Source: Alphaproteobacteria bacterium (lineage in GTDB: Bacteria > Pseudomonadota > Alphaproteobacteria > UBA2136 > UBA6156). From it: a stretch of 64,000 nucleotides of DNA. The position numbers and the translations under genes were made by a program. The DNA lies in contig JAIXQG010000002.1 in assembly GCA_027485835.1 (NCBI GenBank), positions 202,232 through 266,231 on the forward strand. Direction: 5' to 3'. The notes below the pieces were generated by a model. That model did no database searches. It saw nothing but the letters and a program-made list of their open reading frames with translations, and was not told the origin of the DNA. Shown here one piece after another: positions 14,210-23,695 of the stretch (position 1 is the first letter of the stretch; each line of letters opens with the position of its first letter).

Positions 14210-14482
14210 TTAAGCAGAAACGCGTTCCGCGCTTTCGGCCAAAATCACCACACTGGTGGGAGAAATCTCGGCGACACCGGCGGAGACGGTGAAGGTTTCG
14301 GTCTTACCCTCTTGGCTGGTCACGCTCACGGTGCCGCCCGGGCGCAGGGTGCTTACCAACGGCATGTGGCCTGGGAGAACGCCAAAGTCGCCCGCTTCGC
14401 CGGCGACAGTAACGTAGGTAGCCACAGTTTCCGCCATTTGTTGGGCGGGGGTCAGCAGGGTAAATTTCAGCATCTCGATCAT
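14210..14482 (-). CDS. atpC: ATP synthase epsilon subunit, short form
   Basis: Epsilon is part of the F1 central stalk. This 90-residue protein contains the N-terminal beta-sandwich domain (LLTPAQQM, GEAGDFGVLPGHMPLVSTLRPG, SAGVAEISPTSVVILAES) and then stops. The C-terminal two-helix domain, which inhibits ATP hydrolysis in E. coli and Bacillus (about 40 to 45 residues), is absent, and the stop codon lies in normal sequence without signs of a frameshift. It is the last gene of the F1 set but is separated from atpD by two secreted-protein genes. Confidence 0.93.
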   Translation of the reverse strand: MIEMLKFTLLTPAQQMAETVATYVTVAGEAGDFGVLPGHMPLVSTLRPGGTVSVTSQEGKTETFTVSAGVAEISPTSVVILAESAERVSA

Positions 14483-14613
14483 GGGCGCACCCTACTCTGG
14501 ATTGCGCCTTTCGCCAACTGAAAAACACCGCTGACCGTTGCCTGTAGCGTGTGGGAACATGTTAAAGGCCCCCCATGGAGCCCTTAACGTGCGTAACCGT
14601 TAACGTGCGGTAG

Positions 14614-14988
14614 TTATTCGGCAGCTTTTTTGGCTTTGGTCCAGCTTTTGGCCGCTTTTTCCTCATTCATCTTGGCGTCGTGGGCTGCGGCACCGGCTTC
14701 CGCTTGATGCTTAGCAGCATCGCGGGCATCTTCTGCGGCCGAACCAAAATTACCTTCCTTCAGGTTTTCCTTAGCGGCTTCGGCGTTGGTGTTCGCCATG
14801 GTCTCGTGGTAATCCTTGCGGACGTTGTTCACGCCTTCGGCGGTCTTCTGGTAAGCCGCATTGGCCGTGCCGCTGATAACGGTGCCGATACCGGCCTCGT
14901 CGGCAGGCTTAGCCTTGGTTTCGGCTTGTACGGCGCCGGTTGCGGCGAGCATGGCTACCGCTGCGGTGGTGAGCAGATATTTGGTCAT
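14614..14988 (-). CDS. Small secreted Ala/Lys-rich protein, 124 aa
   Basis: The start at 14988 gives a clear signal peptide (MTKYLLTTAAVAMLAATGAVQA, cleavage after about residue 22, written here in full only to residue 20 in effect). The mature part is hydrophilic and helical, rich in Ala, Lys and Glu (GNFGSAAEDARDAAKHQAEA), with no cysteine. It resembles small periplasmic helical proteins in composition only. It lies between atpC and atpD on the same strand. No function can be assigned. Confidence 0.7.
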   Translation of the reverse strand: MTKYLLTTAAVAMLAATGAVQAETKAKPADEAGIGTVISGTANAAYQKTAEGVNNVRKDYHETMANTNAEAAKENLKEGNFGSAAEDARDAAKHQAEAGAAAHDAKMNEEKAAKSWTKAKKAAE

Positions 14989-15029
14989 GGTGAGGTTTCC
15001 CCTTGTTCTATTCCTAGGAAGACGTGAGC

Positions 15030-15059
15030 AAAAAAAAACCCGCCAACACGCGTGGCGGG
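15030..15059 (-). terminator. Intrinsic terminator of the charged secreted-protein gene
   Basis: On the minus strand CCCGCCA pairs with TGGCGGG around a seven-base loop and is followed by eight or more T residues. Confidence 0.9.
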
Positions 15060-15124
15060 GACGGGTTTGTTCGGCTCGTGCCCCGCTGGAGTAACGGGGC
15101 ACTGCCAAGTTGGTTCCCTACGTA

Positions 15125-21398: not shown

Positions 21399-21415
21399 CA
21401 CCTATCAGTCTAAAC

Positions 21416-21442
21416 AAAAACGGCCCATGAAGGGCCGTTTTT
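21416..21442. terminator. Bidirectional terminator next to atpA
   Basis: Stem CGGCCC / GGGCCG flanked by five A and five T residues, between the secreted basic-protein gene and atpA. Confidence 0.9.
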
Positions 21443-21457
21443 GTTCTGCCAAGAAGC

Positions 21458-23092
21458 TTACTTCTTGGACTTGCCCTTGGCGACCTTGGCGGCGGCTTCG
21501 GTCGAGGTCGCTTCGTGCTTCGTCTCGGTGCCCTTTGCTTTGGAGGTCAGGGTTACGTCGTTCGGGTTGAAGCTGTTCTTGGCGCTTTCCAGAGCGGCCT
21601 TGAGTTGCTCTTCCAGCTCGGCGGTCAGCTCGCCCTTGCTGTCGATATCGGTCAGCAGTTTGGCGTAGCTGCTGCGGAGGATTTCCAGCATGTGGGCTTC
21701 GAACAGCGTAATGTGCTTGGCGTCGAGGTCATCCAAGTATCCCTTGGTACCGGCGTAGATACCCACGACTTGCTCGCTTACGCGCAGCGGCTGGTATTGC
21801 TTCTGCTTGAGCAGCTCGGTGAGGCGCTCACCGCGGGCCAACAGCTTGCGGGTGGAGGCGTCGAGATCGGAAGCAAACTGGCTGAAGGCGGCCATTTCGC
21901 GGTACTGGGCGAGGTCGAGACGCATGGTACCGGCAAGCTTCTTCATTGCCTTGGTTTGGGCGGCACCACCAACGCGGGATACGGACAGACCCACGTTAAT
22001 GGCGGGGCGCACACCGGAGTAGAACAGGTCGCTTTCCAAGAAGATCTGGCCGTCGGTGATCGAGATCACGTTGGTCGGGATATAGGCCGATACGTCGCCC
22101 GCTTGGGTTTCGATGATCGGCAGCGCGGTCAAGGAACCGCCGCCGAGATCGTCTGACAGCTTGGCAGCACGCTCCAGCAGGCGGCTGTGGAGGTAGAATA
22201 CGTCGCCGGGGTAGGCTTCGCGGCCCGGAGGACGGCGCAGCAGCAGCGACATTTGACGGTAGGCCACAGCTTGCTTGGACAGGTCGTCGTAAACTATCAG
22301 GCCGTGCATGCCGTTGTCGCGGAAGTATTCGGCCATGGCGCAACCGGCGTAGGGTGCGATGAACTGCATCGGGGCCGGGTCGGACGCGGTGGCGGCGACG
22401 ACAATGGTGTAATCCATGGCGCCGGACTGACGCAGCTTTTCAACCACTTGCGCCACGGTAGAACGCTTTTGACCGATCGCGACGTAGACGCAGAATACCG
22501 GCTTGTCGGTTTTGTGGGTGGCGGCTTGGTTGATGATGGCGTCGATGGCCACAGCGGTTTTACCGGTCTGGCGGTCGCCAATGATCAGCTCGCGCTGGCC
22601 GCGGCCGATCGGAACGAGGGCGTCGATCGCCTTCAGGCCGGTTTGCAGCGGTTCGTGCACGCTCTTACGGGCGATAATGCCGGGAGCAATGACTTCTACC
22701 TTAGCGGTGGTTTTGGCCTTCAGCGGGCCACGACCATCGATCGGGTTACCGAGGGCGTCGACCACGCGGCCGAGCAGTTCCTTACCGGTCGGCACGGAGA
22801 CGATCTGGTTGGAGCGCTTGACGAGGTCGCCTTCCTTAATGGTGCGGTCGTCGCCGAAGATAACCACACCGACGTGGTCTTCATCGAGGTTGAGGGCCAT
22901 GCCCTGAATGTCGCCCGGGAAGGTGACCATTTCGCCAGCTTGCACGCCCTTCAGGCCGTGAACGCGGGCTACACCGTCTCCCACAGACAGAACTTGGCCA
23001 GCTTCTTCTGGCTTGGCATCGGTGCTGAATGCAGCGATCTGGTCCTTCAAGACCTTGGTGACTTCCGAGGCGCGGAGGGTTTCGGTACTCAT
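21458..23092 (-). CDS. atpA: ATP synthase F1 alpha subunit
   Basis: Alpha forms the non-catalytic nucleotide sites of F1. The 544-residue sequence has GDGVARVHGL, the Walker A GDRQTGKTAVAIDAII, the VAIGQKRSTVAQ segment, and VGLSVSRVGGAAQTKAMK. It is about 30 residues longer than most alpha subunits because of a Lys/Thr/Ala-rich C-terminal tail (TSKAKGTETKHEATS and the last KGKSKK). It follows atpH after 48 bases, the only F1 junction that looks like a normal operon here. Confidence 0.98.
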   Translation of the reverse strand: MSTETLRASEVTKVLKDQIAAFSTDAKPEEAGQVLSVGDGVARVHGLKGVQAGEMVTFPGDIQGMALNLDEDHVGVVIFGDDRTIKEGDLVKRSNQIVSVPTGKELLGRVVDALGNPIDGRGPLKAKTTAKVEVIAPGIIARKSVHEPLQTGLKAIDALVPIGRGQRELIIGDRQTGKTAVAIDAIINQAATHKTDKPVFCVYVAIGQKRSTVAQVVEKLRQSGAMDYTIVVAATASDPAPMQFIAPYAGCAMAEYFRDNGMHGLIVYDDLSKQAVAYRQMSLLLRRPPGREAYPGDVFYLHSRLLERAAKLSDDLGGGSLTALPIIETQAGDVSAYIPTNVISITDGQIFLESDLFYSGVRPAINVGLSVSRVGGAAQTKAMKKLAGTMRLDLAQYREMAAFSQFASDLDASTRKLLARGERLTELLKQKQYQPLRVSEQVVGIYAGTKGYLDDLDAKHITLFEAHMLEILRSSYAKLLTDIDSKGELTAELEEQLKAALESAKNSFNPNDVTLTSKAKGTETKHEATSTEAAAKVAKGKSKK

Positions 23093-23140
23093 GGTTTGCT
23101 CCCTTTACTAAACTATTATCTCAACTGGAAATTTGGGGTT

Positions 23141-23695
23141 TTACTTGCTGTGACGCTCGGTGACGGCGGTGCGCAGGCGGGTGCCGAGGCGGGCAAGGCG
23201 ACCGGACAACGAGGCATCCCACACCTTGCCATGGAAAAACGCACGGAAGCCGCCTTTCAGGCTGGCGTCCAGCGTCTCGCTCAGGCGGACGTCGGTGGCT
23301 TTGGTGTAGTCTTGGATCAACTTTCTGATCTTGCTGCGCTGGGCATCGGTCAGCGGCGTGGCGCTGGTGACTTCTACCTGCGTAATGCCGTTTTGGGCAT
23401 CGTTCAGCTCGAGGTAGTGGTTTAATACCGCCGGAATAAGGGCGATGCGGTTGTTACTAGCCAGCACACCCAGCGTGTTGGCCAGCAAGGCCGGAGCCTT
23501 CACAGCCTTGACCATGCTGCCCACCAATTGGGTGCGTTGGGCCGGTGTGAGACGTGGGTTGGCGAGGGCTGCAGCGACAGTGTCGTCGGCTACCGCTGCG
23601 GCAAGGGCTTGCACGCCCGCCGTGACAGCGCTTTGCTGCTTGTGTTCGGTACTTAACGCGAACAAGGCTTTGGCGTAGCGGTTTGCGGCGGTCAT
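23141..23695 (-). CDS. atpH: ATP synthase F1 delta subunit
   Basis: Delta (OSCP) links F1 to the peripheral stalk. The 184 residues start with the family pattern (TAANRYAKALFALS) and carry VEVTSATPLTDAQRSKI near 128 and the typical KGGFRAFFHGKVWDASLSGRL end (normally GGxxxxxGxxxxDxSxxxxL). As in other alphaproteobacteria it is first in the F1 order, with F0 genes elsewhere. Probably cotranscribed with atpA. Confidence 0.95.
   Translation of the reverse strand: MTAANRYAKALFALSTEHKQQSAVTAGVQALAAAVADDTVAAALANPRLTPAQRTQLVGSMVKAVKAPALLANTLGVLASNNRIALIPAVLNHYLELNDAQNGITQVEVTSATPLTDAQRSKIRKLIQDYTKATDVRLSETLDASLKGGFRAFFHGKVWDASLSGRLARLGTRLRTAVTERHSK

Follow-up and report, generated by a model that had tools for sequence, protein, structure and literature searches.

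Background

The F1 subunits of ATP synthase, which are obtained in a ratio of 3:3:1:1:1 from one message, are a standard example of translation-tuned stoichiometry. In Rhodobacter (Rhodopseudomonas) blasticus, a single co-directional gene, 'gene X', stands between the gamma and beta genes of the F1 operon. In this paper, the F1 genes atpH, atpA, atpG, atpD and atpC of an alphaproteobacterium are described, as found in a window of 64,000 nucleotides (GenBank assembly GCA_027485835.1, contig JAIXQG010000002.1, positions 202,232 to 266,231). As with gene X, non-ATPase genes are present inside the F1 operon; unlike it, the window has seven such genes, four of them antisense, together with terminator-like sites.

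According to the accessible part of PMC5709465, the canonical epsilon-beta-gamma-alpha-delta unit exists in 89.1% of Alphaproteobacteria, and subunit genes placed in more than one predicted unit also occur. The window shares with the canonical operon the same five genes, their order and their strand, and atpB of the F0 part is likewise located away from the F1 locus. It differs in its long gaps, in the foreign genes between subunits, in the hairpin and run of T after atpA, atpG and atpD, and in having, as its sequence suggests, probably four or more units instead of one. The blocks described in that part of PMC5709465 are multi-gene, whereas here atpG, atpD and atpC each look cut off while remaining collinear. 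A delta-alpha / gamma / beta / epsilon split is not among the combinations named in section 16 of that paper, as far as its accessible text goes. Additionally, a literature search of titles and abstract openings, with subscription journals mostly outside its coverage, found no F1 operon opened in a like manner. Split ATP synthase operons are already known, and the window adds a variant of them.

The F1 operon is opened by seven genes

As seen in Table 1, all five F1 genes gave Pfam matches above the curated cut-offs and lie intact and collinear on the minus strand within 9.5 kb, from atpH to atpC. An earlier note, made from the sequence alone, had described the genes as complete and canonically ordered, and the matches and coordinates agree with it. 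It had counted eight inserted genes; the number is seven, with 1 between atpA and atpG (A-G), 4 between atpG and atpD (G-D) and 2 between atpD and atpC (D-C), and 4 of the 7 are antisense to the operon. The genes that it had listed were recovered: the plus-strand secreted-protein gene at A-G, the membrane protein, hypothetical open reading frame (ORF) and murI at G-D, and two minus-strand secreted-protein genes at D-C. Its 'PP2C-like' label was not confirmed, as the 276-amino-acid (aa) ORF has no Pfam or NCBIfam match; three other database proteins resemble it at 75-82% identity (E <= 0.001). Apart from murI, no insert matched any Pfam or NCBIfam family above the cut-off. The GC content of the inserts is 52-58%, and that of the atp genes 60-62%. 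Between aligned parts, the H-A, A-G, G-D and D-C gaps are 52, 557, 2914 and 1215 bp. The atpH and atpA genes are separated by 48 bp and no terminator was found between them in the first 150 nt after the stop codon; therefore, they likely form one unit, atpHA.

The separation of the F1 genes is real and not an assembly chimera, and its degree varies across the family. The family was represented by the host genome (G000; 1.53 Mb, two contigs) and ten other genomes of the collection (G001-G010), and the order by seven others (G011-G017). The genus of the host comprises G000, G001 and G002, and genus g4 includes G005, G008 and G009. The wider class was represented by 78 titled alphaproteobacterial loci, which are the 80 best-scoring hits minus the family members L055 and L056 and not a random sample. 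The G-D gap measures 1290-2914 bp in all six family genomes with this junction on one contig (G000, G002, G004, G005, G006, G008). Open A-G junctions (557-2141 bp) occur in G000, G002, G004 and G006, closed ones (59-85 bp) in G005, G008, G009 and G010, and the D-C gap is 1215-2454 bp in G000, G001, G002 and G004. In G005, atpC lies on the opposite strand; in the locus stretches of G006, G008 and G009 it was not found by tblastn at 1e-3, a search that a divergent copy could escape. The genes flanking the G-D junction lie on different contigs in G001 and G009, G003 and G007 provided atpD only, and G010 provided atpH-A-G only.

Outside the family, the outgroups G011, G013, G015, G016 and G017 are compact, with no A-G or G-D gap longer than 113 bp. 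G012, of another family of the order, has an A-G gap of 549 bp and a D-C gap of 33 bp; the F1 beta gene was not found in G014, which was left out of the junction comparison. In the class, gaps of more than 300 bp are found at 1/76 A-G, 3/78 G-D and 2/65 D-C junctions of the loci. That 5 of the 6 order outgroups and nearly all class loci are compact supports the view, already taken in the earlier note, of an ancestral operon opened by insertion with its order kept. In G012, atpA-atpG and atpD-atpC are about 400 kb apart on one contig (G012:C1:294313 and 692576; L048, L047). One locus of a metagenome-assembled genome labelled Rickettsiales (PL24a_bin.1, L089:7541-11977) has A-G, G-D and D-C all open, the longest ORFs there being co-directional, and is probably an independent opening of the F1 operon.

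A chimeric assembly or a binning error joining unrelated stretches would also place strange genes between F1 genes. Nothing at the junctions themselves speaks for it; the relatives are mostly drafts in many contigs, and the GC content goes down to 52% over 18-20 kb. Against this, the neighbours murI-atpD and atpD-charged gene recur in other genomes, and separately assembled family genomes show a like separation, so that such an artefact has a negligible chance of explaining the locus.

The inserts seem to be of different ages. A gene for a highly charged secreted protein follows atpD in the family genomes with enough sequence, as set out below. Next to atpD, murI stands in divergent orientation in 6 of the 10 family genomes with atpD (G000, G001, G005, G006, G008, G009); judged by eye, a Mur-ligase-like gene takes its place in the G-D gap of G002 and G004, and other genes are found in G003 and G007. 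The secreted-protein gene at A-G is common to G000 and G002, with a similar one by eye in G004, and G004 and G006 share an A-G gene resembling, by eye, a chemoreceptor. The 124-aa secreted-protein gene was found only within the genus. The inserts had been called unrelated, but not all of them are newcomers of that kind: the charged gene and murI next to atpD are common to genomes of the family, though not of the class. In a tree of AtpA, AtpG and AtpD (LG+G4, 44 taxa, midpoint root, some taxa without one or two proteins), support was 94 for the family, 99 for the family with G015, and 61 for G012 beside them. On this tree, the charged gene would date to the ancestor of the family and G015, and the G-D opening to the family ancestor. 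Since A-G is open in all but one of the four family lineages, its opening either arose repeatedly or was closed once.

Terminator-like and promoter-like sites at the junctions

Terminators were examined uniformly in the first 150 nt after each stop codon. After atpA, they were found in 3 of the 4 family genomes with A-G open and in none of 9 closed cases (4 of the family, 5 of the order). After atpG, 2 of the 6 family genomes with G-D open have one (G000 and G002), and after atpD, 7 of 10. G012 has terminators after both atpA and atpG. The corresponding class values are 0/32 after atpH, 0/76 after atpA, 0/78 after atpG, 2/78 after atpD and 21/64 after atpC, and mononucleotide-shuffled family sequence gave 0/400, 0/300 and 2/500 after atpA, atpG and atpD. 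A stricter finder (score at least 19, both strands) returned 34 sites in the window; after block shuffling, five versions of the window gave 0-1 sites each. The bidirectional terminators proposed earlier were found on both strands after atpC, atpD and atpA; after atpG, the plus strand has a weaker run of T. From these predictions, hairpin signals tend to accompany broken junctions, although not every one.

Promoter-like sites stand before several of the freed genes. The atpD block CTTGAC-N18-CATGTT precedes atpD in G000, G001 (as GTTGAC), G002, G004 and G007. Its strict pattern occurs 5 times on both strands of 0.63 Mb of family DNA (with one G015 locus), each time before atpD. A looser pattern occurs 33 times in the same 0.63 Mb, including before atpD in G003; it also precedes atpD in G012, and was seen before atpD in none of the 78 class loci. 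The block is present in G002 and G004, where no murI adjoins, and therefore belongs to atpD. In G005, G008 and G009, atpD is closely preceded by a tRNA-Leu(CAG) gene of like orientation (L038:7239-7323, L041:11325-11409, L042:12081-12165); because of this neighbour, atpD of genus g4 may be read from the tRNA promoter.

The site before atpG was scored out of 12 with 17-nt spacing and the second hexamer ending 5-7 nt before ATG. Genomes with A-G open score 8 (G000), 9 (G002), 8 (G004) and 9 (G006); those with A-G closed score 4 (G005, G008 and G009) and 5 (G010), and compact outgroups 3-6. A score of at least 8 is reached at the atpG start of 3/77 class loci and, among family gene starts, in 10/227 first genes and 0/162 inner genes. 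At the atpC start the scores are 7 (G000 and G004) and 6 (G002, G001 and G005). In a family-wide scan for leaderless geometry (second hexamer ending 5-8 nt before ATG, at least 8/12), 22 counts were obtained in 227 first genes, summed over four distances, and 3 in 162 inner genes, while other distances gave 0-4 counts each in first genes. These counts are no more than suggestive of leaderless promoters in first genes of the family.

Genes, terminator-like hairpins and promoter-like sites thus stand between the F1 genes, and because of this the ancestral atpHAGDC transcript has, very probably, become at least four units: atpHA, atpG, atpD and atpC. The separate transcription units of the earlier note are likewise implied by these predicted sites. 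One long F1 transcript might nevertheless run through the inserts by antitermination or processing, with hairpins that merely stabilise RNA ends. Gene order and strand have been kept as though co-transcription still counted, and hairpins are missing at some broken junctions, both of which would fit such a message. It is hard to reconcile with four antisense inserts, of which two run towards atpA and atpG and are parted from them by hairpins, or with the promoter-like sites before atpD and atpG, and we regard it as improbable.

Several observations weigh against the division into four or more units. In a looser scan of positions 14000-24500, neither terminator-like sites (18, with 15.6 +/- 4.0 expected) nor promoter-like sites (5, with 4.0 +/- 1.9 expected) were in excess. 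No terminator was found after atpG in G004, G005, G006 and G008 despite the open junction, after atpA, atpD or atpC in G002 despite its broken junctions, or after atpD in G007 and G009, where junctions are also broken. The atpD pattern was written from the sequences and then counted, so its count is descriptive, and G005, G006, G008 and G009 are without it even in the looser form. In G012, with A-G open, the atpG start scores only 4. The atpC site is weak: G012, with D-C closed, also scores 6, as do 7/63 class loci at 6 or more. Finally, the charged ORF overlaps the atpD stop in G002, so that atpD does not form a unit by itself in that genome.

Other operons of the lineage

The event is not peculiar to ATP synthase: the spc operon is cut after L6, and nuo and sucCD are enlarged in the same lineage. 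As other operons were also opened, this is a habit of the lineage. Of the 9 family genomes examined, 8 (all but G010) have a terminator within 150 nt after rplF (L6), as do G015, G011 and G016, compared with 0 of 18 others (G012, G013, G014 and G017 from the order, 14 from the wider class); the comparison used rplF loci L170-L199, from 30 of 38 matching genomes. In spc of G000, a further hairpin is found between L15 and secY (spc sites L136:3737-3765 and L136:1689-1722). The nuo operon of G000 contains 14 inserted small ORFs by our own gene caller, all co-directional, and one weak terminator (score 17) in the 21.7 kb scanned as two overlapping pieces, against five minus-strand terminators with scores of 21-26 in the F1 locus. 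The nuo inserts occupy seven junctions, C-D, D-E, E-F, F-G, H-I, I-J and K-L (L135:1-14052, L168:5469-12333). In the window, sucD (34409-35293, by NCBIfam) and sucC (36472-37632, by eye) are split by two co-directional genes, a membrane protein gene (35311-35874) and a secreted protein gene (35987-36451). No terminator was found inside sucCD of G000 or inside petABC, the latter named by eye. With F1 and spc cut, and nuo and suc enlarged without cuts, two distinct processes, accretion and cutting, can be distinguished.

These operons also bear on a broader explanation, in which operons decay generally by drift because the genome is small, insertions can be tolerated at any place, and the opening of F1 carries no special meaning. 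The 14 small ORFs in nuo, the two genes splitting sucC from sucD and the cut in spc are what it would predict. However, the nuo and sucCD inserts are all co-directional, and nuo with one weak terminator and sucCD and petABC with none differ from F1 with five; therefore, among the few operons looked at, the cuts fall on particular ones. The proteins themselves are 95% (AtpD), 93% (AtpA), 83% (AtpG), 66% (AtpH) and 69% (AtpC) identical between G000 and G002, and the high values of AtpD and AtpA indicate that the enzyme core is under strong constraint, which also argues against decay. Decay is a serious possibility that we place somewhat below even chances.

For the division into short units, a stepwise history may be proposed. 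A co-directional gene for the charged secreted helical protein would have settled behind atpD before the family arose. Then murI or other genes, in either direction, would have opened the gamma-beta junction in the family ancestor, and some genera would have gone on to open the alpha-gamma and beta-epsilon junctions further. Each freed F1 gene would have kept or gained a short promoter at its own start, with those of atpG and atpC close enough for leaderless messages, and would have been insulated by a hairpin terminator behind it. Since the same lineage cut spc between L6 and L18, the likely driver is that short transcription units are generally tolerated, or even preferred, where genes are highly expressed. 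F1 subunit ratios would then be set partly by promoter strength. A family with seemingly separate promoters and terminators for alpha, gamma, beta and epsilon, together with compact sister groups, would represent a natural experiment on the need for co-transcription. It also offers an ordered series of steps in which a very old operon comes apart while gene order is kept.

A charged, predicted secreted protein behind atpD

The locus draws attention to an uncharacterised protein, predicted to be secreted, whose gene is tied to atpD. Of the family genomes with enough sequence, 9 of 9 have this gene behind atpD; G003, with only 581 bp behind atpD, and G010, with no atpD, were left out of this count. 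After residue 25, these proteins consist of 60-74% K/E/R/D/H/Q/M, depending on the start chosen, and most have PAAQ, PAAE or a like sequence at the C-terminus. In G006, a different small secreted gene precedes the charged gene; in G001 and G007, a second gene of the charged or small secreted kind lies near it. In G015, of the sister family with an otherwise compact operon, a like protein of 102 aa without the PAAQ end begins about 4 nt after the atpD stop, before atpC. A second secreted protein of G015, with 237 aa and 72% K/E/R/D/H/Q/M, is encoded just behind atpC (L045:6827-7540).

A scan by composition found two charged proteins in 177 kb of G000, the atpD-linked one and one probable antisense artefact. 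Eight other family genomes had 1-2 each, G015 had three, G011, G012, G013, G016 and G017 had none, and the class loci had two in 1.47 Mb; the DNA scanned was picked around atp, nuo, ribosomal, F0 and mraY genes and not at random. The ten aligned charged proteins are poorly conserved, with 22-41% identity to the window copy. One of the ten matches DUF3106 (E 1.9e-10) and two match Metal_resist; the window copy reaches no family cut-off, the best Pfam match being KfrA_N at 18.6 bits against a cut-off of 26.1. An alignment-based database search returned, among the best 7996 candidates, 11 proteins, of which three are named Spy/CpxP or CpxP and five have DUF3106. The predicted model has two long helices (mean predicted local distance difference test score 80, from a single sequence), and the signal peptide was judged by composition only. 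A PDB fold search gave 249 matches at E <= 10, none of them at E <= 0.001. In the model, the protein would resemble the periplasmic Spy/CpxP (LTXXQ), DUF3106 and Metal_resist proteins in being secreted, charged and helical; it differs from them in falling below every family cut-off and in having no PDB match at E <= 0.001. We know of no Spy/CpxP-like family tied to atpD.

A bolder proposal is that the charged helical protein is a lineage-specific partner of ATP synthase, which would have joined the F1 operon in the ancestor of the two families and remained next to atpD in all the family genomes examined, although even atpC moved away. By the same proposal, the complexes that the lineage expresses most highly, ATP synthase and the ribosome, would have gone over from polycistronic messages with translation-tuned stoichiometry to short units tuned by their promoters. 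We hold this to be speculative and rather unlikely.

Table 1. Positions of the F1 genes, the intervening genes and the predicted transcription signals in the window
Feature	Position	Strand	Remarks
atpH (F1 delta/OSCP)	23141..23695	-	PF00213, E 4.7e-40
atpA (F1 alpha)	21458..23092	-	PF00006/PF00306/PF02874
atpG (F1 gamma)	20038..20904	-	PF00231, E 4.7e-97
atpD (F1 beta)	15694..17133	-	PF00006/PF02874; start picked by gene caller
atpC (F1 epsilon, N-terminal domain only, 90 aa)	14210..14482	-	PF02823, E 2.4e-22
Secreted protein gene, 115 aa, A-G insert, antisense to operon	21051..21398	+	homologue at A-G in G002
Small membrane protein gene, 95 aa, G-D insert	19694..19981	+	two related copies at G-D in G002
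276-aa gene, G-D insert	18766..19596	+	without Pfam or NCBIfam family
122-aa ORF, G-D insert	18120..18488	-	codon score 19; no family above its cut-off
murI, glutamate racemase, G-D insert, divergent from atpD	17244..18101	+	TIGR00067 above cut-off
Secreted, highly charged helical protein (predicted), 144 aa, C-terminal PAAQ, D-C insert	15125..15559	-	
Secreted protein gene, 124 aa, D-C insert	14614..14988	-	homologues in G001, G002 (rest of genus)
Promoter-like site of atpHA, TTGACA and downstream CATGCCAAAAAG block	23765..23794	-	block identical in G001, G002; near-match in G004
Promoter-like site of atpG, TAGACA-N17-TAATAA, 6 nt before ATG, leaderless geometry	20905..20939	-	score 8
Promoter-like site TTGAAA-N16-TATAAT upstream of the 18120-18488 ORF	18595..18622	-	11/12 consensus
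Promoter-like site of atpD, CTTGAC-N18-CATGTT	17191..17220	-	
Weak promoter-like site of atpC, TTGGCG-N17-TAGGGT, 6 nt before ATG	14483..14517	-	score 7
Terminator-like bidirectional hairpin after atpA and after the + gene 21051-21398	21413..21445	both	
Terminator-like hairpin after atpG; weaker run of T on + strand	19990..20022	-	
Terminator-like hairpin after atpD	15634..15667	both	
Terminator-like hairpin between charged gene and next gene	15031..15059	-	
Terminator-like bidirectional hairpin between atpC and aminotransferase gene	14166..14200	both	

Other features

Two b-type subunit genes are usual in Alphaproteobacteria; one was seen here, in the F0 cluster atpB-atpE-atpF (L137:9168-10859). 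A hairpin inside the F0 operon, between atpB and atpE, was found only in G000 of six F0 loci scanned. The zeta inhibitor (PF07345) was matched in 0 of the 18 genomes of the order, while a Caulobacter control matched. In the accessible part of PMC9317440, a truncated epsilon is described as common in Alphaproteobacteria and zeta as lost in Rickettsiales; because both are reported elsewhere, the short epsilon and missing zeta would not be unique to this order. The ATP/ADP translocase family PF03219 was found in 0 of the 11 family genomes, and control genomes also gave no match, so that the search is uninformative on energy parasitism. Two long antisense open frames in the window, of 480 aa opposite atpD (15667-17109, plus strand) and of 412 aa opposite atpA (22187-23425, plus strand), are probably codon-usage shadows.

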